A stretch of 64,000 nt of DNA, taken from contig JAKLKD010000007.1 in assembly GCA_023150845.1 (NCBI GenBank), forward strand, positions 1 through 64,000, read 5' to 3'. The translations under genes and the position numbers were made by a program. This DNA is from Myxococcota bacterium (lineage in GTDB: Bacteria; Myxococcota_A; UBA796; CAJQPC01). The notes beneath the pieces are model-generated. The model was not told the DNA's origin and made no database searches. It was given only the letters and a program-made list of their open reading frames with translations. Below are positions 3,001 through 58,591 of this stretch, one piece after another (within the stretch, counting starts at the first letter, position 1; every line of letters begins with the position of its first letter).

Positions 3001-6000
3001 CGGCCTGGCCCTCCACACGGCGGGGGTGCGGCGCCCCTCGGGCGAGGTCCGCGAGGGGCTCGATGAGGCTCGGGGCGTCGTGGGCGACGATCACCGCGCG
3101 CTGGGGCAAGGCCACGCGACCTGTGGCCAAGGTCCGGGCGAGGCCGGGCAGGGGCGCCTCAGGGTTCGCCAAGAGCCAGGCGTGGAGCCGCTCGGCGACG
3201 GCGGCCAAGGCGGCGGGGGTCTGGGCGGAGAGCACGAAGGGCAGGCCGCGGTGGGCCTCGGGGCGCGGCGCCGCCGGGCGCGCCGGGGGCGCCTCCAGGA
3301 CGACGTGGGCGTTCGTGCCGCTCAAGGCGAAGGCGCTCACCCCGGCGCGGAGGGGCCCAGCACCGGCCTCAAAGTCCGTGAGCGTGGTGTTCACGACGAC
3401 GGGCAGGCGGTCCCAGGCGATGCGTGGGTTCGGCGCGCGGTGGTGCAGGCTCGGCGGGAGCTGGCCCTTGGAGACGCAGAGCGCGGCCTTGATGAGCCCG
3501 GTGATGCCCGCGGCGCACTCCCCGTGGCCCACGTTCGTCTTCACCGAGCCGATGCGCAGCGCCGCCGACCGCCCCTCACCATAGGCCGCGGCGAGGGCCT
3601 CGACCTCGATGGGGTCACCGATGGGCGTGCCCGTCCCATGACACTCGACGTAAAAGACTGACGCGGGCTCGACGGCGCCGTCGCGCAGGGCGTCGCGGAT
3701 CACCTCGGCCTGGGCGAGCCCGCTGGGCGCCATGGGCCCGTCGCTGCGGCCGTCCTGGTTCACGGCGCTGCCCCGGATCACCGCGAGCACCTCGTCGCCG
3801 TCCCGCAGGGCGTCGGAGAGCCGCTTGAGCAGCACCACGCCGCAGCCCTCGCCCCGGACGTAGCCGTCGGCGTCGTCGGAGAAGCTGTGGCAGCGGCCCG
3901 TCGGCGACAAGGCGCGGAGCTGGCTCAGCCACACCTGGGACTCCGGGGCGAGCAGCACGTTCACGCCCCCGGCGAGGGCCATCGTGCACTCTCCGGCGCG
4001 CAGGGCCCGCACGGCGAGGTGAACGGTCACGAGGCTTGAGGAGCAGGCCGTGTCGATGGCCATGTTCGGGCCGCGCAGGCCGAAGGCGTAGCTGATCCGC
4101 CCGATCATCGGCGCGTGGATCGTGCCCAGGCCCGACCAGGGGTCGATCTCGTCCACGTCAGCGATGGCCCGCCACTGGTACTCCGTGCCGCTGAGCCCCA
4201 TGTAGACGCCCACCCGGGCGCCGTCGGTCTCGGCCACGCCCGCGCGCTCGAAGGCCTCCCAGACGCACTCCAAGAGCAGGCGCTCCTGGGGATCGACGCT
4301 GCGCGCCTCCCGGGGAGAGAAGCCGAACAGCGCGTGGTCAAAGCCCGTGAGGTCGCCGAGCAGGCCCGCCCAGCGTGAGACGGTCTTCCCCGGCGCGTCG
4401 GGCCGGGGGTCGTACCAGGCCTCAATGTCGAAGCGGTCGGGGGTGATCTCCCCGATGGTGTCCGTCCCAGTGACGAGCAGCTCCCAGAGCGCCTCGGGGC
4501 TCGTGACCCCGCCGGGCAGGCGGCAGGCCGCGGCGATGATGGCGATGGGCTCCCGGTCGTCCGCCGCCGCCGGGGCCTGGGCAACGACCGCCTCCCCCGC
4601 GCCCAAGGCCGCGCAGAGCCCGGCGATGGTGGGGTGGCTATACAGCAGGCTCGCGGAGACCGGGCGGCCGAGGTGGGCCTCCAAGGCGGCGGCCAAGGCC
4701 ACCGAGGCGCTGGAGTCGAGGCCCAGCTCCGCCAGAGGCCGCCGGGGGTCCACGGCGCTCTTGGAGATCCCCGCCAGGGTGGCCACCTCGGCGACGAGCC
4801 AGTCCTCCAGGCGTTGGGCCGGGGCCGCCGCCGCCGCCGGGACCGCCCGGGGCGCCTCCCAGCGGGCCAAGACCGGGAGCTCCCCGTCGAGGAGCGCCCG
4901 CTTCGTGGCCCGGCGCATCACCTTGCCGCTGGAGGTCTTGGGCAGCTCGCCCGGCGGGAGGAGCACGATCAAGGCCGCGGCGACGCCCAGCTCGGCGCCG
5001 ATGGCCGCGCGGATCCCGTCGAGCAAACCCTCAGCGTCGAGGGGCCCCCGGCGGCTGTCCACCTCGGCGACCACAGCGACCCGCTCCTCGTCGTCCACCT
5101 CCCACACAAAGGCCGCCGCGCAGCCGCCGCGCACCTTGTCCACGGACTCCGCGGCGGCCTCGACGTCTTGGGGGTAGATGTTGCGGCCGCCCAAGAGGAT
5201 GAGGTCCTTCTCGCGCCCGGTGAGCACGAGCTCCTCGCCGACGAAGCAGCCGAGGTCGCCGGTGCGCAGAAACGGCCCCGAGCCGTCGTCCCGAATCCGC
5301 GCGCCGAAGGTCTCCGCCGAGAGCTCCGGGCGCCCCCAGTAGCCCTGGGCGACGCTCGGCGAGCGCACCCAGACCTCGCCGATCTCCCCCGGCGCGCAGC
5401 GCTCCATCGTGCTGGGCCGCACGATCTCCACCTGGGTCTCCGGCCCCGGCGCCCCGACGGCGGTGAGGCCCCGGGCGTCGGGGTCGTCAGCGGCGGTGAG
5501 GGTGAGGCGACCGGCGGCGAGCTCGGCCCGGCGCACGGAGAGTAAGGTCGGCGGTGCGGTCACCTCGGGCATGGTCACGCACAGCGTCGCCTCGGCGAGC
5601 CCATACCCGGCGAACCAGCTCTCCCAGGCGAGGCCGCAGCCCCGAAAACGCTCGTAGAACCTGCGTAAGGTGTCGGGGCGTACGGGCTCGGCGGCGTTGA
5701 CGATCACCCGCCACGACGAGAGGTCGATACGCTCCAGCTCCTCCTCGGTGACCTTCTTGGCGCAGAGGTCATAGGCGAAGTTCGGCCCGCCGCCGGTCAC
5801 CCCCCGGTAGCGGGTGATCGCGTGAAGCCAGCGCGTCGGCCGCCGCAAGAAGTCGAGCGGCGACATCAGCACGCCCAAGCTCGCGGTGTGCATCGTGTGC
5901 AGGATGTTGCCGACGAGGCCGAGGTCATGAAACACCGGCAGCCAGCCCACCACCACGCTCTCAAAGCGCTGGCCTTGGGTGCCCCAGGACTGCCCGAGCT

Positions 6001-6589
6001 GGTGCATCATGTTGCCGTGGCTCACCATCACGCCCTTGGGCTGCCCCGTGGAGCCCGAGGTGTACTGCAAGAGCGCGAGCTGCTCCGGCGTGGCCGGGGA
6101 GACGTGGTGGTCGTCGCCCAGCGCCCCGTCGGTGGTGAGCCAAGGCAAGGCGCCGAGCTCCGGGGCGTAGGCCAAGGTCAGCTCGGCGAAGGCCGCCAGG
6201 GCCTCGGTGGTGAGCAGGGCCTTGGCCCCGGCGTCGGCGGCGATGGCCCGCAGGCGGGGCACGCTGCGGTCGAGGCGGGCGGGGTCGGGCGGGTACGCCG
6301 GGACGGCGACGGCCCCGGCGTAGAGGCAGGCGAAGAACCCGGTGATGAAGTCGAGCCCCGGCGGGAACACCAGGAGCACCCGCTCCCCGGCGAGGCCCAG
6401 GGCCACGAGCCGCGCGGCCAAGGCCCCGGCCTGGCGGTCGAGCGCGGCGTAGCTCAGGCGGGGGCCCTCGGTCTCCCCGTCCTCCAAGAACAGGTAGCCC
6501 GCCTCGGCGTGGGACTGGGCGCGGGCGCGAAGGAGCGCCACGAGGTCCGAGAATCCCAAGGACGGCGTCGGGGAGGGGTTGTGGGGCAT
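1..6589 (-). CDS. Modular type I polyketide synthase with N-terminal fatty-acyl-AMP ligase (partial, runs off left edge)
   Basis: This reading frame stays open from an ATG at 6589 to the window edge (2196 residues seen, C-terminus missing). Visible domains are as follows. A fatty-acyl-AMP ligase occupies about residues 10-590, with adenylate-forming motif TSGSTGQPKGV near 175 and HDLGLVG near 220. An acyl carrier protein follows with phosphopantetheine Ser626 (GLDSS). A ketosynthase lies at about 680-1100 with DTACSSS (Cys849), HGTGT and NVGH. An acyltransferase lies at about 1195-1480 with GHSQGE (Ser1293) and YASH near 1393, the pattern of methylmalonyl-CoA selectivity. A dehydratase follows with His near 1593 and DxxxQ near 1747; the usual HxxxG glycine is Gln. 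Then come a structural ketoreductase segment and the first part of an MDR-type enoyl reductase. The logic is loading of a free fatty acid as acyl-AMP onto the ACP, then one reducing, probably methyl-branching extension. The product is unknown. Confidence 0.93.
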   Translation of the reverse strand, partial: MPHNPSPTPSLGFSDLVALLRARAQSHAEAGYLFLEDGETEGPRLSYAALDRQAGALAARLVALGLAGERVLLVFPPGLDFITGFFACLYAGAVAVPAYPPDPARLDRSVPRLRAIAADAGAKALLTTEALAAFAELTLAYAPELGALPWLTTDGALGDDHHVSPATPEQLALLQYTSGSTGQPKGVMVSHGNMMHQLGQSWGTQGQRFESVVVGWLPVFHDLGLVGNILHTMHTASLGVLMSPLDFLRRPTRWLHAITRYRGVTGGGPNFAYDLCAKKVTEEELERIDLSSWRVIVNAAEPVRPDTLRRFYERFRGCGLAWESWFAGYGLAEATLCVTMPEVTAPPTLLSVRRAELAAGRLTLTAADDPDARGLTAVGAPGPETQVEIVRPSTMERCAPGEIGEVWVRSPSVAQGYWGRPELSAETFGARIRDDGSGPFLRTGDLGCFVGEELVLTGREKDLILLGGRNIYPQDVEAAAESVDKVRGGCAAAFVWEVDDEERVAVVAEVDSRRGPLDAEGLLDGIRAAIGAELGVAAALIVLLPPGELPKTSSGKVMRRATKRALLDGELPVLARWEAPRAVPAAAAAPAQRLEDWLVAEVATLAGISKSAVDPRRPLAELGLDSSASVALAAALEAHLGRPVSASLLYSHPTIAGLCAALGAGEAVVAQAPAAADDREPIAIIAAACRLPGGVTSPEALWELLVTGTDTIGEITPDRFDIEAWYDPRPDAPGKTVSRWAGLLGDLTGFDHALFGFSPREARSVDPQERLLLECVWEAFERAGVAETDGARVGVYMGLSGTEYQWRAIADVDEIDPWSGLGTIHAPMIGRISYAFGLRGPNMAIDTACSSSLVTVHLAVRALRAGECTMALAGGVNVLLAPESQVWLSQLRALSPTGRCHSFSDDADGYVRGEGCGVVLLKRLSDALRDGDEVLAVIRGSAVNQDGRSDGPMAPSGLAQAEVIRDALRDGAVEPASVFYVECHGTGTPIGDPIEVEALAAAYGEGRSAALRIGSVKTNVGHGECAAGITGLIKAALCVSKGQLPPSLHHRAPNPRIAWDRLPVVVNTTLTDFEAGAGPLRAGVSAFALSGTNAHVVLEAPPARPAAPRPEAHRGLPFVLSAQTPAALAAVAERLHAWLLANPEAPLPGLARTLATGRVALPQRAVIVAHDAPSLIEPLADLARGAPHPRRVEGQAAPAGRVCLVFPGQGGQWAGMGRALLDHDPVFTETIDACAEALRPLVSWSIREALTTDDDTFLDRVDVVQPTLFCMNVALAAMWRARGLVPDAVMGHSQGEVAAAVVAGALRLEDGLLISARRGAALVRLEGRGAMAAVELGEAALGGWLEAWGGRLVIAAVNSPTSCVVSGPPEDVDALVRALGKAQVFARRARVTYASHGPQVEALHDELSAALAGLRPQAARIPICSTVTGGWARGEALDAGYWVKNLRAPVRLLDATERLLQDGFGVFVEVSPHPVLTQALSGAAKARGQAAVVAPTLRRDDGGAERVTLGLGALWAQGLPVAWAEGLPPAPRVSPPTYPFTREHHWITPRPRGDAEVTGPHPWLGPPQVAPESPERAQFEVRLSPRRAPWLLDHRVEQAAILPTTAYVELLTAALRARPGGEGLTLADLRLHHALPLGADTPRLTLTVRPAGRGLRLALYEAVGEGWRLLTTAMGLPAEAPPTRAAPAAPPPHDAEAFYEALHDAGLSYGPAFRGVLGARREGDRAFGLVRLPERAGSARGFLAHPALLDACLQTLTLLKDPDAPLMVPTGLRRARLGAAPARGALVVEAQRRRSPEGEALADVWAWDDAGALVAALDGVTLGPLTGASDPLDGVILSVTWEEHSPKAPPTATPGRLVLAAGAAGSASAAFAARLAPSLRAAGATVTTLDALAPEDPDALAQTLTPHLDGARALVNLLALDAEEPEDLGDDPARLGRAAWAGAVHFAQLLSRASTTTRLITLTHGAAPGVPGDETIRLGGVMAWAAMGTIRVESPRQRPARVDLGALHRDDTLGALTLCLLDDGDEDSLAVREGRIFAARLTRGGLPSVSPAAVDAGGQPFRLERLDGALRLVLTPKATPGPGQALLRVKAADAHDAAACAEGESPGGVCVGEVVALGPGVTGLAIGATVMAARPEGGALAAEVVVDTRRALATPPGLSAEQAAAGALPRCAAWLALVDAARVAPGERVWVSPGPL

Positions 6590-6633
6590 GTCGTCATCCT
6601 GGACGAGTCGGTGTCAGAGTTTCGCAGGTCGTG

Positions 6634-8397
6634 TCAGCGATCGCGGGAGGCGCCGACGGGCGCGGGCAGGGGGCCGGGGCTCCAAGGCAAAAGCAGGGCC
6701 TCGCCGGGCGCGGGCAGGCGCACGGAGCGTAATGCGCCGTCCGACCAAGCCAACGTCCGCCAGCGGGGGTCGGACAGCGGCGGGTCAAAGGTGAAGGACA
6801 AGGCCCGGGGCCCGGCGGGATCCTCGGCGACGATCGGGTCGAGGCGCCGCACGGTGAGGCCCTCGCGATCCCAGCGCGTCGGGCTCCGCCGGGCGTCGTC
6901 GGGGTGAAGGAACAGCCGCTCCAGGGGCTGATCCCAGAGCCGCCCTGAGGCCAAGGTGAGGGTCAAGGTGGCGTCGTCTACACGCTCGACCCGGTGATCC
7001 GTCGGGCTCGCCGAGAGCACGATGAGGCGCTCCGGCGCCGCGCCGCCCTCAGCGACGAGGCGCGCCGGGATCAAGGTGAGGGAGGTCCAGGCGTCGGGCA
7101 TCGTGAGCACGAGCACGAGGGCGTCGGGCGGCATCGGCGAGGGCAGCTCGGCGGCCTCGGCGGCCTGGCGCAGGTCCTCGGCTTTGTTCGCGACCACCCG
7201 GAGCTGGATCGGGACCATCAAGGCCCCCAAGGCCGCGCCCAAGGCCAGGGGGGCCAAGGGCAGGAGCCCCCGTCGGGAGGTCGGCCAACGGGCCCAGGCT
7301 TCAGCGAAGAGCGCGGCGAGGACCATCACGCTGCCGAGGGTCATCCACAGGGTCAGGCGCCCGCCGGGGGCGGCCACGGTGAAGATCGGCAGGCCGCCCA
7401 GCGCGCCCAAGACGCCGATGCGCGCGGCGTCTCGGCGTGTCGGGCTGAGCTGAGGCCAGGCCCGCCAGAGGCTCAGCCCCACCAAGGCCGCCCCGCCGAG
7501 CCCCAAGGCCAACAAGACCGGCCGGGCCGCGGGGGCGGTGAGCCAGAGGTCGGCGGGCAAGAGCGCCAAGGCGCCGGAGAGCAGGGCTGGCCCCCGGCTG
7601 AGCGCCCCCCAGGCCGCGCCGAGGGGGTCCACCCGGGGGTCGAGGTAGAGCGCGCTGCCCTCGACGCCGTAGCCGAGGGCGGTGTGCAGCGCCGTGTAGC
7701 CCAAGAACAAGGCCCCGACGCCCAGGAGCGCCCCGCGCCAGCCGGGCCGCCGCAGCACCCACTCCAAGGCCGCCGCGTAGGGCAAGACCCCCAAGGCCGT
7801 CTCCGAGCTGGCGAGGCCCAGCATCACGCCCAGGGGTGCCAACCAGAGGCCAGGGCGCCAGCCGTCCAGGCGCCCGCGGGCCCAGGCGACGAGTCCCAAG
7901 AGCGCCGGGGCCGCGCCCATCCAGGCGTGGTGGTTGCTCACGAACCAGACGAGCTGGAGGTGGGCGGGGTGCGCGGCGAACAAGGCCAGGGCCAAGAGCG
8001 CCGCCCGACCGCCGAGCAGGCGCCGGTAGAGCGGCCAGGCCGCGGCGACGAGGCCGAGGGTGCCCACGATGCCCACGGCCTGCCAGGCCCAGGACCGGGG
8101 GTCGAGGACCGGGACCAAGGCCGCGAGCAGGGCCCCGGCGAGGGGGCGGGCGAGGATCCAGCGCAGGTTTGGGGAGGTCCACCAGAAGCCGACGCCACGA
8201 TCCCGCCAGAGGTCCTCCGCGACGGCGTAGCTGAGGTGAAAAGGCGCCGCGCGCTCCTCCCCCTGCAGGCTCAGCGCCCACCAGAGATCGTCCGCGGTGA
8301 GCCCGACACCGAGCGCCGGCGCGTGCAGGAGCACGAACCCCAGCAGGATCCACGCCGCGCCCCTCGGCGCCGCTGGGCGGAGCGGCGGCGTCAGCAT
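6634..8397 (-). CDS. Polytopic membrane protein, possible GT-C-type glycosyltransferase or O-antigen-like protein
   Basis: A 587-residue protein. About ten hydrophobic segments fill the first 400 residues and a soluble domain of about 180 residues follows. It has an early Asp pair (LTADDLWW) after the first membrane segment and a SNHHAW loop, reminiscent of GT-C enzymes that use lipid-linked sugars, but no family is certain. I chose the ATG at 8397; a GTG at 8433 would add 12 polar residues and extend into the spacer shared with the divergent sulfatase gene. It lies 44 bp upstream of the polyketide synthase start on the same strand, so the two may be co-transcribed. The role is inferred only from topology. 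Confidence 0.8.
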   Translation of the reverse strand: MLTPPLRPAAPRGAAWILLGFVLLHAPALGVGLTADDLWWALSLQGEERAAPFHLSYAVAEDLWRDRGVGFWWTSPNLRWILARPLAGALLAALVPVLDPRSWAWQAVGIVGTLGLVAAAWPLYRRLLGGRAALLALALFAAHPAHLQLVWFVSNHHAWMGAAPALLGLVAWARGRLDGWRPGLWLAPLGVMLGLASSETALGVLPYAAALEWVLRRPGWRGALLGVGALFLGYTALHTALGYGVEGSALYLDPRVDPLGAAWGALSRGPALLSGALALLPADLWLTAPAARPVLLALGLGGAALVGLSLWRAWPQLSPTRRDAARIGVLGALGGLPIFTVAAPGGRLTLWMTLGSVMVLAALFAEAWARWPTSRRGLLPLAPLALGAALGALMVPIQLRVVANKAEDLRQAAEAAELPSPMPPDALVLVLTMPDAWTSLTLIPARLVAEGGAAPERLIVLSASPTDHRVERVDDATLTLTLASGRLWDQPLERLFLHPDDARRSPTRWDREGLTVRRLDPIVAEDPAGPRALSFTFDPPLSDPRWRTLAWSDGALRSVRLPAPGEALLLPWSPGPLPAPVGASRDR

Positions 8398-51044: not shown

Positions 51045-52508
51045 ATGCAGAGCCCTCCTCCCCTGCGGCGCGCCCTCCGCTACTCGGGCGCCCTGCGCGC
51101 CCTGGTGTTTGACGCGTTGAGCGTGGCGCTCTTGTCGCTCTACGGCGGGGAGGTCTGCCCGCTCATCGAGCAGCTCGGCCCGCTGCATCTCGGCCAGCTC
51201 CTCATCGGGGTGTACGCGCTCAGCCAGGCCATCGCCTTGCCCCTCGGCGCCCGGCTTGAGGCGGGGCTCGCCCCGGAGGGCTGGCCCGAGGCCCTGGCGC
51301 GGCTCACGTTCTACCGCACCTTCGCCATCGGCGTCTTGGTGACCTTCGGCTTCACCTGGGGCCTCGGCTTCCCCGTCGAGAGCGGGCTCAAGATGCTCAT
51401 CGGCGCGGTCACCTTGGGCCTGATCTCGGCCTTGGACGGTCGGTTCTACGCCGAGGGCAAGCTCATCGACGCCGCCGAGCGCGGGGAGCTGCAGATTCAG
51501 GACATCGGCGAGCCCTCGTCCCGGGTGCACGAGCTCATGGTGCTCGGGGCGACGGGGCTCATCTTCTCGACCCTCGTGCTCGTGCTCGTGGTGCGGAAGG
51601 ACCTCGCCGACCTCGCCTTCGTCTCCCAGATCGACCTGCCGGGCGCGCTCCGCGACGTGACCATCGAGTTCAGCTTCGTCGGCGCCGTGCTCGTCGGGGG
51701 GCTCTTGCACCTCCTGCGCCTCGTCGGCGGCAACCTCAAGCGCCTCGTGGACGCCGAGGCCAAGGCCCTGGGCCGCCTCACCGCCGGGGAGCTCGACGTC
51801 TGGGTGCCCATCTCCTCCCGGGACGAGCTCGGCCACATCGCCGTACACACGAACCGCCTCGTCGACGCCATGCGGGAGCGGAAGCGTGTGTTTGAGACCT
51901 TCGGCAAGGCCGTGAGCCCCCAGGTCGCCGCCCGCCTGCTCCAGGGCGGCGCGGCGCTCGGCGGCGAACGTAAGCGGGTCGTCGTGATGTTTGTGGACAT
52001 CCGCGACTTCACGCCTTGGGTCGAGCGCACCTCCCCCGAGGCCCTGGTCCGTGACCTCAACCGCTTCTTCACCGAGGCCGTGCGGGTGATTCACCGCCGG
52101 GGCGGCCTCGTGGACAAGTTCATCGGCGACGGCCTGATGGCGGTGTTTGGCCTCGATGAGCCCGAGGGCGCCGAGTCCGCGGCGGCGCTGGCGGCGCTGG
52201 AGCTTCAGGCGGCGTTCCAGGCCTTGGGGGCGGGGCTGGAGCACCCGCTGCGGGCGGGGGTCGGCGTACACGTCGGCGAGGTCGTGGCCGGGGTGATCGG
52301 CTCGCCGGATCGCCTGGAGTTCACCGTGGTCGGGGACGCGGTGAACACGGCGGCGCGGGTCGAGGGCCTGACGCGGACCTTAGGCGTAGACGTGCTGCTG
52401 ACGGGCTCGGTGATCGCGGGCCTCCCCGAGCCCGGCGCGTGGCGCAGCCTCGGGGAGCACGGCGTGAAGGGCCGCGCGGCGCAGATCGAGGTCTTCACCC
52501 CGGCCTGA
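51045..52508 (+). CDS. Membrane-bound class III adenylate/guanylate cyclase
   Basis: 487 residues. The N-terminal half has about six membrane segments, a HAMP-like linker (LKRLVDAEAKALGRLTAGELD ... RDELGHIAVHTNRLVDAM, about 230-280), and then the cyclase domain from about 300. Catalytic features are present: metal Asp in VVMFVDIRDFT, the second Asp in VDKFIGDGLMAVFG, and the transition-state Asn/Arg in VVGDAVNTAARVEG. The presence of both metal Asp and the NxxxR pair predicts an active enzyme. The Lys of DKFIGDG is present, consistent with ATP use, but purine specificity is not certain. It probably converts a membrane signal into cAMP. Confidence 0.93.
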   Translation: MQSPPPLRRALRYSGALRALVFDALSVALLSLYGGEVCPLIEQLGPLHLGQLLIGVYALSQAIALPLGARLEAGLAPEGWPEALARLTFYRTFAIGVLVTFGFTWGLGFPVESGLKMLIGAVTLGLISALDGRFYAEGKLIDAAERGELQIQDIGEPSSRVHELMVLGATGLIFSTLVLVLVVRKDLADLAFVSQIDLPGALRDVTIEFSFVGAVLVGGLLHLLRLVGGNLKRLVDAEAKALGRLTAGELDVWVPISSRDELGHIAVHTNRLVDAMRERKRVFETFGKAVSPQVAARLLQGGAALGGERKRVVVMFVDIRDFTPWVERTSPEALVRDLNRFFTEAVRVIHRRGGLVDKFIGDGLMAVFGLDEPEGAESAAALAALELQAAFQALGAGLEHPLRAGVGVHVGEVVAGVIGSPDRLEFTVVGDAVNTAARVEGLTRTLGVDVLLTGSVIAGLPEPGAWRSLGEHGVKGRAAQIEVFTPA

Positions 52509-52511
52509 GGC

Positions 52512-52715
52512 TCAGCCCTTGTAGAACTCGACGTAGCAGCGTCGATCGGGGCTGCAGCGCTCCGGGCAGGCGAGGCCGCCGTCGGGCCCCCAGCTCTCGA
52601 CGCTCTGTGCGCAGGAGTAGGGGACCTCGTTGAGCGCGAAGACGTCGAGCACGCGGCGTGGATCCTCCCGGTGCTCACGGTGGCCCTTCCAGCGGAGATG
52701 CTTACAGAGCTTCAT
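52512..52715 (-). CDS. 67-residue Cys-rich protein of the molybdenum hydroxylase operon
   Basis: Starts at the ATG at 52715, which overlaps the stop of the FAD-subunit gene (ATGA). Cysteines are at CKH near the N-terminus and then SC, AC, RC and RC in the last 35 residues (YSCAQSVES, LACPERCSPDRRCY), suggesting a small metal or Fe-S site. It may help cofactor insertion or electron transfer for the neighbouring enzyme; that is inference from position. Not in the length range of usual gene callers. Confidence 0.7.
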   Translation of the reverse strand: MKLCKHLRWKGHREHREDPRRVLDVFALNEVPYSCAQSVESWGPDGGLACPERCSPDRRCYVEFYKG

Positions 52716-53662
52716 GGGGCCTCCAGGGTGATCAGGTTCCGCAGGGTGTCTTGAACGCAGGCGACGACGACGGGGAGCTTCCAGCGGGTCATGGGCAGGG
52801 GGCTGGCGTCCTTGACGCTCAGCTCCCCGGCGGCCATGAGGCGGGCCTCGGTGAGCGGGCCGCCGAGCAGGGCGTCCTCGGCGGCGCGGGCGCGGATGGG
52901 GGTGTTGGCCACGCCGCCGAGCGCGATGCGGGCCGAGGTGATCTGCCCGTCGGCGTCGAGGACCACCCGCACGATGGCCTCGACGATGGGCCACTCGGCG
53001 TTGTTGCGGTGGGCGATCCGGCGCCAGGCCGAGCGCTCGCCGAGGGTCGGGGCGGGCAGGCGCAGGGCGACGATGAGCTGGCCCTCGGTGAGCCGGTGGG
53101 TGGCCCGGGGGTTCGTGCCGTCGCCGTAGAGCCCGGCGGCGTCGAGGCGCGCGCCGTCGGCGAGCTCCACCTGAGCGTCCCAGGCCAAGAGGCCCAAGGC
53201 CAAGGTGGAGGGGTGGGGCGCGGCGCAGGCGCCTTGGTCAAAGCAGGAGTGTAAGAAGTGGTCGCCGCCCCGGGCGAGGCAGGCGTCGCCGCCCTTCTTG
53301 AGGCAGACGAGGTGGGGGTTGCGGTAGTAGGCGCAGCGCACCTCTTGGGTGAGGTTGCCGCCGACCGTGGCGACCTCCCGGATGCCCGGGGTCGCGAGGC
53401 CCGCCGCCGCCGCCGCGAGGCCGGGGTAGTCCCGGCGCACGGCGGGGTCACGGGCGAAGGTGGCGATCTTCGTGAGCGCCCCGACGGTGAGGCCCCCGGT
53501 CGGCTCGGCGGTGATCGTGCTGAGCGCGGCCATGTCGCGCAGCTCCACCACGTCGCCGTGGTGAAGGCCGCGGGCGCGGCGGGCCTGGAGGTCGGTGCCC
53601 CCAGCGCGGAAGCTGCCGGGGGTGGCGGCGGCGGTGAGGGCGTCTTTGGGGAAAGAGATCAT
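52712..53662 (-). CDS. FAD-binding subunit of a molybdenum hydroxylase (xanthine dehydrogenase family)
   Basis: 316 residues of the CO dehydrogenase-M/XDH FAD domain. It shows RAGGTDLQARRARG near the N-terminus, IREVATVGGNLTQEVRC (the GGN FAD motif), and a Cys-containing stretch CAYYRNPHLVCLKKGGDACLARGG. The C-terminal domain starts near 190 (HRLTEGQLIVALRLPAP). It overlaps the large subunit gene by ATGA (53659-53662) and the small Cys-rich gene by ATGA. The extra Cys cluster near 110-130 might hold an Fe-S centre, as in 4-hydroxybenzoyl-CoA reductase relatives. Confidence 0.9.
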   Translation of the reverse strand: MISFPKDALTAAATPGSFRAGGTDLQARRARGLHHGDVVELRDMAALSTITAEPTGGLTVGALTKIATFARDPAVRRDYPGLAAAAAGLATPGIREVATVGGNLTQEVRCAYYRNPHLVCLKKGGDACLARGGDHFLHSCFDQGACAAPHPSTLALGLLAWDAQVELADGARLDAAGLYGDGTNPRATHRLTEGQLIVALRLPAPTLGERSAWRRIAHRNNAEWPIVEAIVRVVLDADGQITSARIALGGVANTPIRARAAEDALLGGPLTEARLMAAGELSVKDASPLPMTRWKLPVVVACVQDTLRNLITLEAP

Positions 53663-56448
53663 GCGCGGAGCGCCTCCAGCACGCGGTCAGGGCGAAGGGG
53701 GAGGGCGCGCAGGCGCACCCCGGTGGCGTGGGCGAAGGCGTTGCCGACGGCCCCGGCGACGCCGATGGTGGACAGCTCGGCGAGGCCCGCGCCGCCGCCG
53801 CGCACGCCGTCGAGGGGCGTCTCGTCAAAGACCACCTCCAGCGCCGGGGTGTCGCCGACCCCGATGATGCGGTAGTCCTCAAGGTTCGTCGTGAGCTGCA
53901 GGCCGGTCTTGGGGTCGAGGCGGCGCTCCTCGTAGAGCGCGTAAGAGAGGCCCTGGATGAAGCCGCCGAGGCCCTGGCTGCGGGCGACCGGCGGCGCCAT
54001 GATGCGGCCCGCGGCGAGGCCCATCCAGCCCTCGGTGGCGCGGGTGCGGCCCGTGACGGTGTCCACCTCCAAGGCCACGGCGATGACGGCGCCCGGCCAG
54101 GCCTTGCCCCAGCCGAACTCGTCGGTGGCGAAGTAGTAGCCGTCGTCGTCCCGGCGGCGGCGGCCCAAGGCCCGGCGCTCCCCGGCCCGGGCGAGGATCT
54201 CCGCCCAGGTGAGGCGCCCACCGTCGTGATCGACGCCGCCGTGGCCCATGACCGCGTTCTTGACGTCGAAGAGGTCCTCAGCGAGCTCAACGAGCTCCTC
54301 GGTGAGCTGCTTCGCGGCGTCTTCAGCGGCGGGCACGATGGAGGGGGTGGTGCGGCTGCCCGCCGAGGCCGGGCCCCGGGGCGCGTCGGAGTCGCCGAGC
54401 TGCACCTCGATCTGCGACCGGGGCACACCCAAGGCCTCGGCCAAGGTCCAGCTCAGGGCCGAGCGGCTGCCTTGGCCCATGTCTTGGCAGGCGCAGCGGG
54501 CGACGAAGGTGCCGTCGGGGCGGCCGATCAGCTCGACCCGGGTGCCCTTGGACAAGAAGTAGGGCCAGGCGGCGGCGGCGACGCCGACCCCGCGGCGGAT
54601 GCGGCCCTCACCGCGCTGGGCGTCGCGGTCCCGCCACAGCGGCGAGGCCGAGACGAGGTCGTAGAGCCGCTGGCGGCCCGGGTTCGGGTCCCACCGTTTA
54701 CGCAGGGCGATGGGGTCCTCGCCGCGCTTGAGCGCCAGCTCATCGACGGCCTGCTCCAAGGCGTAGAGCCCCGCCGGGCCGCCGGGGCCGCGGAAGGGTT
54801 TGCCCGGGGCGGTGGTCGTGACCACGTCGTAGTCGCGCACGTCTTTGTTTTTGCTGCGGTACAGCAAGCGCAAGACGAGGCCCGTCGAGCCCCCGACGGC
54901 GGCGCCGTTGAGGTTGTAGGCCTCGGCGTCGAGTCCGCCGAAGCCACCCTCGGCGTCCGAGGCGAGGCTGAGGTTCACGCTGGCCTCGGGGCGGTTGCCG
55001 CCGACGAGGAGCTCCTCCCAGCGCTCGAAGGCGAGGCGAACCGGGGCCCCGGCGAGCTTGGCGAGATCGACGGCGGTGATGAGCTCCTTGTCTACGCCGG
55101 CCTTGCTGCCGAAGCCGCCGCCGACGTGATCCGCGCGCACCCGCACGTTGGCGCGCTCCAGCTCGTAGCGCTCACAGAGGGCGTCCGCCATGTCGTCTAC
55201 GGACTGGGTGGAGAGCCAGACCTCAAGCTTCGTGTCGCCGTCCCAGCGGGCGACGGCGGCGTGGGGCTCCATGCAGGTGTGGGCCTGGTTGTGGGCGGTG
55301 TAGCGGCCCTCGATGAGCTGGCCCTCCCCGGCCCGGGCCGCGGCGATGGCGGCCGCGGCACGTTTGGGCTTGGCGAGGATGTTCGTCTCCGTCGGCCCGC
55401 GCAGGTTGCCCTTCCACGGCGCCTTGAGCACCGGGGCCTCCGAGGCGCTGGCGATGCCGGCGCCGCCGGGGAAGATGATGGTCGCGCCCTCGGCCAAGGC
55501 GGACTCGGCGGAGATCACCGGGGCGCGGAGGTTCAGCTCCAGCTTGATGGCGGCCAAGGCCGCGAGTGCGGTCGCCTCATCGACGGCGGCGACGGCGACG
55601 AGCTCTTGGCCCTCGTAGCGGATCGCCGCCCCGGCCATGACGAAGGACTTCACGGCCTTGACGCCGGGCATGGCCTCGGCGGCGCTCAGGTCGATGGCGC
55701 TGACCTCGGCGTGGGGCACCGAGGCGCGCAGGACCTTGGCGATGAGCATGCCCGGGAGCTGCACATCGACGGTGTACTTCGCCGCCCCGGTGACCTTCGC
55801 CCGGGCGTCGTAACGAGGGGCCTCCTTCTCCGGGCCGTCGAAGCGCCCGGCGCAGGCGTCGCGGATCGCCGCGCGGATGCCGACCTGGGCGCCGCAGCGG
55901 CAGACGTGCCCGGCGAGGGCCTCGGCGAGCTCCTCATCGCTGGGCTCCGTCGCGCCGTGCTCCGCGCGCCAGCGGTCCATAAAGGCCGCGCCCTCCATGA
56001 CGAAGCCTGGGGTGCAGAAGCCGCACTGCATGGCGTCGTGGGCCAAGAACGCCCGCTGCACCGGGTGCAGGTCGGCGCTGAGGCCCTCGACGGTGGTGAC
56101 CTCCCGGCCCTCCAAGGCGACGGCGGGGAGCAGGCAGGCGCAGGCCGGGGCCTTGTCCACCATCACGGTGCACGCGCCGCAGGCGCCTTGGCCGCAGCCG
56201 AGCTTCGCCCCGGTGAGGCCTAGACGCTCACGCACCAAACGCAGCGCCGACTCATCGGCGCCGACGGTCTCGCTGCGGGCGACGCCGTTGACGGTCGTGC
56301 GCACGACCACGGAGTCCACCCCGGCTGGGGCGGAGGGGGCCTCACCGGCCTTGGCGACGGACTCCGCGTCGGCCCGGAGCGGCAAGCTCGCGGCGCCGCT
56401 CAGGGCGATCACGCCGCCGAGAAACCCACGTCTGGAGGGGATGTTCAT
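53659..56448 (-). CDS. Periplasmic molybdenum hydroxylase, fused 2Fe-2S and molybdopterin subunit
   Basis: 929 residues from the ATG at 56448. It begins with a twin-arginine signal (SRRGFLGGVIALSGAASLPLRADA). Residues about 45-200 are the 2Fe-2S module (CGQGACGACTV; CGFCTPGFV; HVCRCG), and about 210-929 the molybdopterin-binding domain (FAHNQAH-like TAHNQAHTCMEPHAAVARW, VRADHVGGGFGSKAGVDKE). Near the C-terminus GLAELSTIGVAGAVGNAF aligns with the GVGEPxTPPVAPALANA block, so the catalytic Glu is kept. Fusion of the two modules in one chain with a Tat signal resembles membrane- or periplasm-located aldehyde or isoquinoline oxidoreductases. The operon's promoter lies just upstream. Confidence 0.92.
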   Translation of the reverse strand: MNIPSRRGFLGGVIALSGAASLPLRADAESVAKAGEAPSAPAGVDSVVVRTTVNGVARSETVGADESALRLVRERLGLTGAKLGCGQGACGACTVMVDKAPACACLLPAVALEGREVTTVEGLSADLHPVQRAFLAHDAMQCGFCTPGFVMEGAAFMDRWRAEHGATEPSDEELAEALAGHVCRCGAQVGIRAAIRDACAGRFDGPEKEAPRYDARAKVTGAAKYTVDVQLPGMLIAKVLRASVPHAEVSAIDLSAAEAMPGVKAVKSFVMAGAAIRYEGQELVAVAAVDEATALAALAAIKLELNLRAPVISAESALAEGATIIFPGGAGIASASEAPVLKAPWKGNLRGPTETNILAKPKRAAAAIAAARAGEGQLIEGRYTAHNQAHTCMEPHAAVARWDGDTKLEVWLSTQSVDDMADALCERYELERANVRVRADHVGGGFGSKAGVDKELITAVDLAKLAGAPVRLAFERWEELLVGGNRPEASVNLSLASDAEGGFGGLDAEAYNLNGAAVGGSTGLVLRLLYRSKNKDVRDYDVVTTTAPGKPFRGPGGPAGLYALEQAVDELALKRGEDPIALRKRWDPNPGRQRLYDLVSASPLWRDRDAQRGEGRIRRGVGVAAAAWPYFLSKGTRVELIGRPDGTFVARCACQDMGQGSRSALSWTLAEALGVPRSQIEVQLGDSDAPRGPASAGSRTTPSIVPAAEDAAKQLTEELVELAEDLFDVKNAVMGHGGVDHDGGRLTWAEILARAGERRALGRRRRDDDGYYFATDEFGWGKAWPGAVIAVALEVDTVTGRTRATEGWMGLAAGRIMAPPVARSQGLGGFIQGLSYALYEERRLDPKTGLQLTTNLEDYRIIGVGDTPALEVVFDETPLDGVRGGGAGLAELSTIGVAGAVGNAFAHATGVRLRALPLRPDRVLEALRA

Positions 56449-56476
56449 CTGGGCACTCCGTAACTGAACGTCGGTC

Positions 56477-56504
56477 ATTATACCGATTCGCCCAAACCTG
56501 ACAA
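56477..56504 (-). promoter_or_regulatory. Sigma-70-type promoter of the molybdenum hydroxylase operon
   Basis: On the reverse strand, -35 TTGTCA (56504-56499, 5/6) is separated by 16 bp from a perfect -10 TATAAT (56482-56477). The ATG at 56448 is 29 bases further and has GGAG seven bases upstream. CGGT/ACCG arms flank the -10. Confidence 0.65.
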
Positions 56505-56599
56505 GACACCCCTCAAAAAGTTGGCGGACCCCCCGGGCCCCGCCGCGGCGGGCCAGAGGATAGAGTTGCGCGGCGCGCTGTCGCGCAGCTGGAGCGAAG

Positions 56600-56929
56600 A
56601 TGAACGACCCCCTCAAGATCGACGACATCAAGGTCGGCGCTGGCGCCGAGGCCGTCGCTGGCAAGAACGTCACCGTGCACTACGTCGGCACCCTCACCAA
56701 CGGCTCGAAGTTCGACTCCTCCCGGGATCGTGGCGAGGGCTTCACCTTCCGCCTCGGCGCGGGCATGGTCATCAAGGGCTGGGACCAAGGCGTCGCCGGG
56801 ATGAAGGTCGGCGGCGTGCGCAAGCTCACCATCCCGCCGAACCTCGGCTACGGCGTGCGCGGCTACCCGCCGGTCATCCCCGGCAACTCGACCCTCGTCT
56901 TTGAGGTCGAGCTGCTCTCCGTCGGCTGA
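56600..56929 (+). CDS. FKBP-type peptidyl-prolyl cis-trans isomerase
   Basis: 109 residues, the size of a single FKBP domain with no signal peptide, so cytoplasmic. All hallmark segments are present: [56 protein letters not shown] and [10 protein letters not shown]. Active-site aromatic residues (Tyr, Phe, Asp of FDSS, Trp of GWDQG) are kept, predicting an active prolyl isomerase. Divergent from the molybdenum hydroxylase operon, with 151 bp between them. Confidence 0.96.
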
Positions 56930-56940
56930 GCGGCCTCCGC

Positions 56941-57693
56941 TCAGGCGTGCAGCAGCTTCTTGATGAGGGTGGAGGTGGGGTCGTGCCCGGCGAGCCACGC
57001 GAGGCGCACCGGGCGCTGGCCCCCCAGCACCGTGATCCGCGCCGCGGCGCCTAAGTCGCGGCCGTCACACACCACCCGCGCCGGGCGGCGGTGGGCGTCG
57101 AGCACCTCCACGTCCACCCGGGCGCCCAAGGGCAGCGCGACGGGCCGCAGGCGCGGGATGTGGGGGTTGATCGCCACGAGCTGCAAGAGCGGCAGGCTCG
57201 GGTGGCAGGCCACGCCCCCGGCCGCGGTGGCGTAGGCCGTCGAGCCGAGGGCCGTCGCGGCGATGAGGCCGTCACAGACGAGGCGCTTGACGACGACCTG
57301 GCCGTCGAGGCTCACCCGCAGGTGGGCCGTCTGACCCGAGGCGCGCTCGACGTAGAGGTCGTTCAGCGCGAGGTCGGCGACCACCTCGCCGCTCGGGGCC
57401 GTGACCTCAGCGGCGAGGCGCGGCGCCTGGATGACGTGCCAGCGCGACAGATCCCGCATCCGGAGCAGCAAGGAGTCGGTCTCGTCTAAGGCGTTGAGCA
57501 AGAAGCCCAATCGACCGCAGTTCACGCCGAGGTAGGTGTGCGCGTCGCCGAGCTCGTGGATGGTGCGCAGCATGAAGCCGTCGCCGCCGAGCACGAGGCA
57601 GAGATCGGCGGGGAGGTCGTGGCCCAAGAGCGGCGCGAGCTCCTCACGCTTCTGGCAGGCGAGCTCGTTGTGCGGGTCGTGGCGGATGAGCAC
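56941..57693 (-). CDS. nadK: NAD kinase
   Basis: 250 residues from a GTG at 57693. It carries LCLVLGGDGFMLRTIHELG (the GGDG catalytic motif), LGVNCGRLGFL (NxGxLGF), LALNDLYVERASGQTAHLRV and the GLIAATALGSTAYATAAGG block that binds NAD. The N-terminus is about 35 residues shorter than in typical enzymes, lacking part of the first strand, but all catalytic elements are present. It converts NAD to NADP. Divergent from the dapF-like gene. Confidence 0.93.
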   Translation of the reverse strand: MLIRHDPHNELACQKREELAPLLGHDLPADLCLVLGGDGFMLRTIHELGDAHTYLGVNCGRLGFLLNALDETDSLLLRMRDLSRWHVIQAPRLAAEVTAPSGEVVADLALNDLYVERASGQTAHLRVSLDGQVVVKRLVCDGLIAATALGSTAYATAAGGVACHPSLPLLQLVAINPHIPRLRPVALPLGARVDVEVLDAHRRPARVVCDGRDLGAAARITVLGGQRPVRLAWLAGHDPTSTLIKKLLHA

Positions 57694-57754: not shown

Positions 57755-58591
57755 ATGCGCCTCTTCAAGTCTCACGCCTTGGGCAACGACTACCTCATCC
57801 AAGAGTCCGGCCCGCCGCCCACCCCGGCCTTCGTGCGCGCCCTCTGCCACCGCCACGAGGGCGTCGGCAGCGACGGCCTGCTCTGGCCCCAGCCCTCCGC
57901 CGTCGCCGACTGCGGCGTGCGCATCTTCAACCCCGACGGCTCCGAGGCCGAGAAGTCCGGCAACGGCCTGCGCATCTTCGCCCGCTGGCGGGTGGACCGG
58001 CTCTACACCCGCCGGGACTTCACCGTCGAGACCCTCGGCGGCGTCGTGCGCTGTGAGGTGCTCGACGACGGCGTGCGTGTGGAGATGGGCCGGGCGCGGT
58101 TTGAGCCCGAGGCCCTGCCCGCCACCTTCGCCGGGCCCTTGATCGACGACGCCTTCCCCCTCGGCGACGAGGCGCTCACGGCGACGGCGCTCTCCGTAGG
58201 CAACCCCCACTGCGTGATCTTCGTCGAGCACGACCCCGAGCTGGCCCCCTGGCGCCGCTGGGGTGAGGCCATCGAGCGGGATCCGCGCTTCCCCAAGCGG
58301 GTGAACGTGCAGGTCGCCCAGGTGCTCGGCCCCGATCACCTCAACATCCGCATCTGGGAGCGCGGCGCCGGGGAGACCTCAGCCTCGGGCTCCTCATCCT
58401 GCGCCGTGGCCGCCGCCGCCGTGCGCACCGGCCGCCTTCGCCCAGGCCGGATCCGCCTCGTCATGCCCGGCGGCGAGCTGTTCGTCACCGTCTCGCCGAG
58501 CTTCGACCTCACCCTGGAGGGCGCGGTGACCCCCATCGGTGAGCTGGTCCTGGAGCCGAGCTGGCTCGCCGCCGCGCGGGCGTTGCCTTAG
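57755..58591 (+). CDS. dapF: Diaminopimelate epimerase-like protein with both catalytic Cys replaced by Ser
   Basis: 278 residues, full DapF length, with the family landmarks: LFKSHALGNDYL at the N-terminus, FNPDGSEAEKSGNGLRIFARW, SVGNPHCVIFV and WERGAGETSASGSSSCAVAAA. In classical DapF the two catalytic cysteines lie in CGNG and ACGTG. Here the aligned residues are Ser68 (KSGNG) and Ser211 (ASGSS), while the nearby non-catalytic Cys216 is kept. Either this is a Ser-type subfamily, which I cannot check, or its activity differs from meso-DAP formation. It overlaps the converging glycosyltransferase gene by 4 bp. Confidence 0.85.
   Translation: MRLFKSHALGNDYLIQESGPPPTPAFVRALCHRHEGVGSDGLLWPQPSAVADCGVRIFNPDGSEAEKSGNGLRIFARWRVDRLYTRRDFTVETLGGVVRCEVLDDGVRVEMGRARFEPEALPATFAGPLIDDAFPLGDEALTATALSVGNPHCVIFVEHDPELAPWRRWGEAIERDPRFPKRVNVQVAQVLGPDHLNIRIWERGAGETSASGSSSCAVAAAAVRTGRLRPGRIRLVMPGGELFVTVSPSFDLTLEGAVTPIGELVLEPSWLAAARALP

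Follow-up and report, generated by a model that had tools for sequence, protein, structure and literature searches.

The gene at positions 57755-58591 (+) of the window, the 64,000-nucleotide stretch of Myxococcota DNA analysed here, probably encodes a working epimerase that converts LL- to meso-diaminopimelate (DAP) and belongs to the Ser/Ser group of DapF, a thiol-free subclass that arose once and spread widely. In textbooks DapF exemplifies how a thiolate/thiol pair abstracts a proton, and as a drug target it has covalent inhibitors that attack its cysteines. The functional likeness of the Ser/Ser protein to DapF is predicted from its context and is strongly supported by it.

The open reading frame starts with ATG and encodes 278 amino acids, which score 214.2 bits against the DapF equivalog model TIGR00652 (cut-off 114.65) and 164.8 bits against PF01678 (cut-off 34.7), with two DAP_epimerase half-domains and no other Pfam family at E-values up to 0.001. 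The only other matching model, NF038284 for the bifunctional DapF/glutamate racemase, gave 70.9 bits, below its cut-off of 350. Just as the original prediction had it, serine stands in both halves of the active site and the surrounding motifs are intact: Ser68 (codon TCC, 57956-57958, +), within NPDGSEAEK[S]GNGLR, replaces the catalytic cysteine of the N-terminal half, and Ser211 (codon TCG, 58385-58387, +), within ERGAGETSA[S]GSSSCA, replaces that of the C-terminal half. An AlphaFold2 model built from 21 Ser/Ser sequences (mean pLDDT 96.1) adopts the two-domain DapF fold, in which helices 69-83 and 212-224 begin immediately after Ser68 and Ser211. The closest solved structures are DAP epimerases, those of Anabaena (Z 38.5, 265 residues, rmsd 1.6) and Arabidopsis (Z 37.5). 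Because the PROSITE signature of DapF, as quoted in PMC8225329, demands cysteine and the catalytic cysteine pair is missing here, with Ser68 and Ser211 in its place, the protein is filed as a Ser/Ser variant rather than as a classical two-cysteine DapF.

Every DAP-contacting side chain compared is kept in the substrate pocket. According to PMC12039745, Anabaena DapF holds both ends of DAP via Asn13, Asn66, Asn164, Asn197, Glu215 and Arg216, which correspond, with numbering matched by motif, to N11, N59, N150, N184, E202 and R203 here, and each of these six residues is present in all 126 Ser/Ser proteins of our comparison set. In the same source, the catalytic sulphurs are hydrogen-bonded by backbone groups of Gly76 and Gly227. 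Gly227 of Anabaena corresponds to Ser214 here, so a hydroxyl has been gained by the very residue that holds the second catalytic atom.

Homologues were found by protein search in 52 of the 58 genomes of the order, the window's own genome included; all 52 carry serine at both catalytic positions, and none of these genomes has a second homologue (in G030 two pieces of one gene were found). A PF01678 search likewise matched 23 order genomes, with a single gene in each of them. The own genome (7.13 Mb in 444 contigs, 95.7% complete) yielded only one PF01678 gene, seen as two half-domains, and no second dapF by either the PF01678 or the protein search, so that the earlier supposition of a sole DapF holds within this assembly. 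No homologue was found in six order genomes (G006, G012, G016, G020, G046 and G056), which tells against the reading as a working DAP epimerase. Two of them, G006 (97% complete) and G046, are near-complete and contain MurE, dapA, dapB and lysA, with dapF and the DapD N-terminal domain not detected; for the lack of dapF in G006, assembly gaps may be the explanation.

The suggestion that the coordinated change marks an adapted rather than a decayed enzyme gains from the single origin, the conserved companion residues and the purifying selection seen in a comparison with the copy of the same genus (dN 0.091 and dS 0.380 by NG86). A sequencing error or a decaying gene was ruled out on the grounds of this selection, the Ser/Ser state of 52/52 order homologues and its occurrence in many phyla. 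Selenocysteine was also rejected: several homologues had one TGA inside, yet the catalytic positions were serine in all of them. The sole stop within an order-homologue alignment was C-terminal (L037).

The switch between the two forms is clean. The comparison set consisted of 210 distinct proteins, from which duplicates of order proteins (L127, L133, L138 and L152) had been dropped and outside which the second copies L207 and L218 were kept; the truncated L223, with one cysteine and a gap, was not counted as Cys/Cys. The 209 proteins readable at both sites divide into 126 Ser/Ser and 83 Cys/Cys, with none mixed. In an 87-row tree a single branch (SH-aLRT 98) separated the Ser/Ser proteins from the rest, and after removal of 11 active-site columns (85 rows, without L223 and L226) they again formed one clade (SH-aLRT 99), both trees being quick, unrooted and computed without bootstrap. 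The phylogeny that had been proposed as a check on the original prediction thus returned a single clade of Ser/Ser forms. A single origin followed by wide spread is the best explanation of this sequence pattern.

Several other columns change together with the serines. Tyr13 (57791-57793, +), which adjoins the substrate-contacting Asn11, is present in 126/126 Ser/Ser proteins vs 8/83 Cys/Cys proteins, which mostly have Phe. Lys67 (57953-57955, +), directly preceding Ser68, occurs in 120/126 Ser/Ser proteins, and Met takes its place in 79/83 of the Cys/Cys ones. Ile74, Gln186 and Ser214 (58394-58396, +; at +3 from Ser211) are each found in 125 of the 126 and in none of the 83, Gly or Ala occupying position 214 in all Cys/Cys forms, and Met237 in 114/126, with Leu in 80/83 Cys/Cys proteins. 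Pro60 and Ala205 are also constant in the Ser/Ser set, an invariance partly imposed by the scan patterns described below, which favour both columns. The lone Ser/Ser protein with Gly214, L206 from a Nitrospiria bacterium, sits basally in the Ser/Ser clade, and on its sequence could possibly be an intermediate. Because L206 keeps Gly214 and position 67 varies, neither Ser214 nor Lys67 is strictly required. Two candidates for a substitute catalytic residue were rejected: Cys31 is present in every one of the 126 Ser/Ser proteins but also in 52/83 Cys/Cys proteins and so is no obvious replacement, and Lys67, as an essential new base, is absent from 6/126 Ser/Ser proteins.

The impression that Ser/Ser forms exist elsewhere was also correct. 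PF01678 was found in 136 of 141 genomes of the phylum, and 70 further phylum loci were read, second copies of G062, G105, G110 and G154 being left out of the reading: 65 are Cys/Cys and five are Ser/Ser. L087 and L088, two neighbours from the class but not from the order, are Cys/Cys. Four of the five Ser/Ser genomes outside the order (G079, G098, G133 and G162) also hold a Cys/Cys gene, and G114 has the Ser/Ser gene alone. Beyond the phylum, 84,980 species genomes were scanned with the patterns [IV]WERGAGxT and IxNPDGSxAE, neither of which includes a catalytic residue. By motif, 73 of the best 80 of 588 loci are Ser/Ser and seven Cys/Cys; because only these best 80 were kept, the spread among phyla is a minimum and the frequencies are not representative. 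By record title, the Ser/Ser loci belong to at least Verrucomicrobiota, Bacteroidota, Chloroflexota, Nitrospirota, Aquificota, Cyanobacteriota, Bacillota, Pseudomonadota, Armatimonadota, Planctomycetota, Methylomirabilota, Dadabacteria and others.

From the 73 named Ser/Ser loci, 50 were chosen for a count of copies, and 49 genomes were searched (without L136). No other PF01678 gene above cut-off was present in 36 of the 49; the extra copies in the other 13 have cysteine in the N-terminal half in 13/13 cases, with both cysteines read in 11/13, and in these genomes the Ser/Ser copy could have another role. In Lacrimispora xylanisolvens (L194), genes for D-Ala-D-Ala ligase and the Ser/Ser DapF abut (4973-5992 and 5995-6852), and a second dapF, of Cys/Cys type, lies about 19 kb from the Ser/Ser copy. 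Pseudomonas sp. 21 likewise carries both forms.

Pathway genes were searched in 30 chosen genomes (including lysA, murE and dapB), with Ddh searched in 27 and dapA and the DapD N-terminal domain in 19. In the own genome, dapA and dapB are adjacent (G000:C289), and a DapC-type aminotransferase (438.7 bits, slightly below the cut-off of 453.6) adjoins the DapD N-terminal domain (G000:C335). Its MurE scores above the cut-off of the 2,6-diaminopimelate ligase model and carries DNPR, which we take to be the mark of a DAP-adding MurE and which was seen in each of the 15 MurE proteins read from the order (L239 and L241-L254) and in 8/8 named ones. A bypass through meso-DAP dehydrogenase (Ddh, PF16654) was considered and rejected: none was found in the own genome, and PF16654 matched 1/27 genomes (G189) and 0/13 of the own order, the control genomes of Bacteroides and Corynebacterium giving matches. 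With dapA and dapB, DapC- and DapD-type genes, a DAP-type MurE and no Ddh, the route of this genome stops at LL-DAP unless the Ser/Ser DapF works.

It had further been supposed that both lysine and peptidoglycan precursor synthesis would depend on this enzyme. The peptidoglycan part is supported, given the DAP-type MurE and the lack of Ddh, but for lysine the dependence is not supported in the own genome, because no lysA above cut-off was found there and the top match of the lysA profile is an arginine decarboxylase. The same-genus G001 also lacks a lysA above cut-off, with the rest of the DAP route seemingly present, so that lysine auxotrophy or an assembly gap is possible in both. Across the order, lysA exceeded its cut-off in 6 of 16 genomes examined. 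The lysA-profile matches of G002, G006, G026, G029 and G046 sit in frames of about 880-1110 amino acids with one or two in-frame TGA/TAG codons, and these long frames are perhaps aspartate kinase-LysA fusions.

Outside the order, metagenome-assembled genomes of Nitrospira (G201), Sulfurihydrogenibium (G182) and Methylacidimicrobium (G217) have a single Ser/Ser gene as their only DapF, and in all three lysA and dapA were above cut-off and Ddh was not found; G201 and G217 also have dapB, which was not found in G182, and murE was above cut-off in G201 and G182, not in G217. Organisms of these types probably grow without supplied lysine. The growth substrates of M. fagopyrum include methane and methanol, according to a review (PMC8498564).

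Gene neighbourhoods add to the DAP-pathway context, which in relatives comes from the neighbours of dapF and in the own genome from pathway genes elsewhere. At the 73 Ser/Ser loci, read with flanks of up to 6 kb, a LysA-like ORF was found at seven and dapA plus dapB at two (L154 and L147); in L154, dapA and dapB come after dapF and each scores above its cut-off. The order in Tangfeifania (L139) is dapL (637 bits, cut-off 365), dapF and lysA (298.7, cut-off 297.9), and in Opitutales (L164) dapL (642, cut-off 585) terminates a few bases upstream of dapF. Furthermore, in the Chloroflexi bacterium ADurb.Bin325 (L183:2-1498, +) the C-terminal half of LysA is fused in frame to a Ser/Ser DapF, the contig beginning within LysA.

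In the window itself, the divergent neighbour of dapF is a NAD kinase gene (56941-57693, -) conserved across the order: a homologue lies within 0.6-1.5 kb of dapF in 38/51 order loci, despite short flanks. Further away are a xanthine dehydrogenase-type pair (52712-56673, -), consisting of a FAD subunit and a large protein with 2Fe-2S and molybdopterin domains, and an adenylate/guanylate cyclase with a MASE10 sensor (51045-52508, +).

Taken as a two-base enzyme, the protein would use Ser68 and Ser211, each at the N-terminal end of one of two facing helices, in place of the thiolate/thiol pair, and the two serines may shuttle the alpha-proton from one face of DAP to the other. The helix dipoles, together with Ser214, Tyr13, Gln186 and Lys67, would compensate for the high pKa of serine. 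On sequence grounds, the alkoxide could be stabilised by Ser214 and the helix ends, and one face might be assisted by Tyr13, which is aligned to His152 in the opposite half. This half-to-half alignment follows the GN motif, at a low hhalign probability (0.66%). The product in the own genome most likely goes to MurE and peptidoglycan. Activity is below 0.1% in single Cys-to-Ser mutants of PddB (PMC8225329) and greatly reduced in those of HisR (PMC11602996), and because such engineered mutants are nearly dead, the native Ser/Ser enzyme must compensate. The wider proposal is that a large and ancient DapF subclass, the only DapF of its carriers in many phyla, performs cofactor-free two-base alpha-epimerisation with serines activated by helix dipoles and the co-evolved Tyr13 and Ser214 and with no thiol; as a whole, we regard this proposal as evenly poised.

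The serines might instead only shape the site of a DAP epimerase whose base is Tyr13, His152, Lys67 or an activated water, a reading that we consider unlikely yet worth attention. The presence of Tyr13 in every Ser/Ser protein and in 8/83 Cys/Cys ones and its low-probability alignment with the invariant His152 speak for it, as does the very poor performance of engineered serine as a base (PMC8225329); on the other hand, His152 is just as invariant in Cys/Cys proteins, Lys67 varies, the serines are invariant, and natural serines were assigned catalytic roles in the related 4HypE and t3HypD (PMC4113996). A substrate other than DAP for the Ser/Ser subclass, such as a different diamino acid, is improbable. 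DapF-like HisR, PddB and O-ureidoserine racemase do have substrates other than DAP, and 13 of the 49 named genomes contain a Cys-bearing PF01678 gene besides; nevertheless, every DAP-contacting residue is kept, the Ser/Ser gene is the sole copy in the other 36 and in the own genome with its DAP pathway, and the gene pairs and the one fusion of relatives join it to genes of that pathway.

Still more improbable is a catalytically dead relative with a structural or regulatory role: both textbook catalytic residues are lost, and E. coli DapF also binds RppH (the DapF-RppH complex has been solved, 6d13 and 6vck), but the own genome, in which no other DapF and no Ddh were found, has a DAP-type MurE, the pocket is invariant, and the operon and fusion partners are metabolic. 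Neither a second canonical dapF nor a different amino acid substrate, the two outcomes that would have spoken against the original prediction, turned up. A working Ser/Ser DAP epimerase is our preferred reading.

If this reading is true, a two-serine enzyme would change what is thought necessary for DapF chemistry, and the Ser/Ser and Cys/Cys enzymes would form a ready comparison set. Thiol-directed inhibitors and redox control would be ineffective in bacteria with only a Ser/Ser DapF, and meso-DAP would be supplied across many phyla by a sole DapF insensitive to an active-site disulphide. For C. glutamicum DapF, PMC5296763 proposes a disulphide between its two cysteines as the off-switch, and because both cysteines are replaced, such a disulphide is impossible in the Ser/Ser enzyme.

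Among known systems, canonical DapF (TIGR00652; H. influenzae, E. coli and Anabaena) is alike in length, fold, DAP pocket and pathway partners, and likewise places its two catalytic residues at helix N-termini; the differences are the Ser/Ser pair and the linked Tyr13, Pro60, Lys67, Ile74, Gln186, Ser214 and Met237. No description of a natural Ser/Ser DapF was found in the open-access literature, as far as its texts were available. A profile search of the PDB returned 17 sequences, and the motifs read in five alignments were all CGNG and ACG[ST]G; two further matches are, by title, laboratory Cys-to-Ser mutants. The engineered H. influenzae DapF variants C73S and C217S (PDB 2q9h and 2q9j) share the fold and have serine at one catalytic position, but they are single laboratory mutants in a cysteine background without the companion residues. 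HisR/CntK, the 2,4-diaminobutyrate racemase PddB and O-ureidoserine racemase have a DapF-like fold or homology and other substrates, and HisR and PddB have been shown to use two catalytic cysteines (PMC11602996 and PMC8225329, respectively).

The proline racemase superfamily has a related fold (Z about 24-28) and natural serine at the first catalytic position. PMC4113996 describes an active 4-hydroxyproline epimerase with Ser93/Cys236 and a dehydratase with Ser90/Thr256, in which the serine is held by Asn at +3. PMC4364671 lists four types (Cys-Cys, Cys-Thr, Ser-Cys and Ser-Thr), and Ser-Ser is not one of them. The Ser-Cys 4-hydroxyproline 2-epimerase and the Ser-Thr trans-3-hydroxyproline dehydratase differ from the protein studied here in having one serine with Cys or Thr opposite, other substrates and only 12-16% identity; where that description of the dehydratase has Asn at +3 of its serine, our protein has Ser at +3 of Ser211. 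By analogy, the natural Ser/Cys epimerases of this superfamily offer the nearest precedent for a Ser/Ser DapF.
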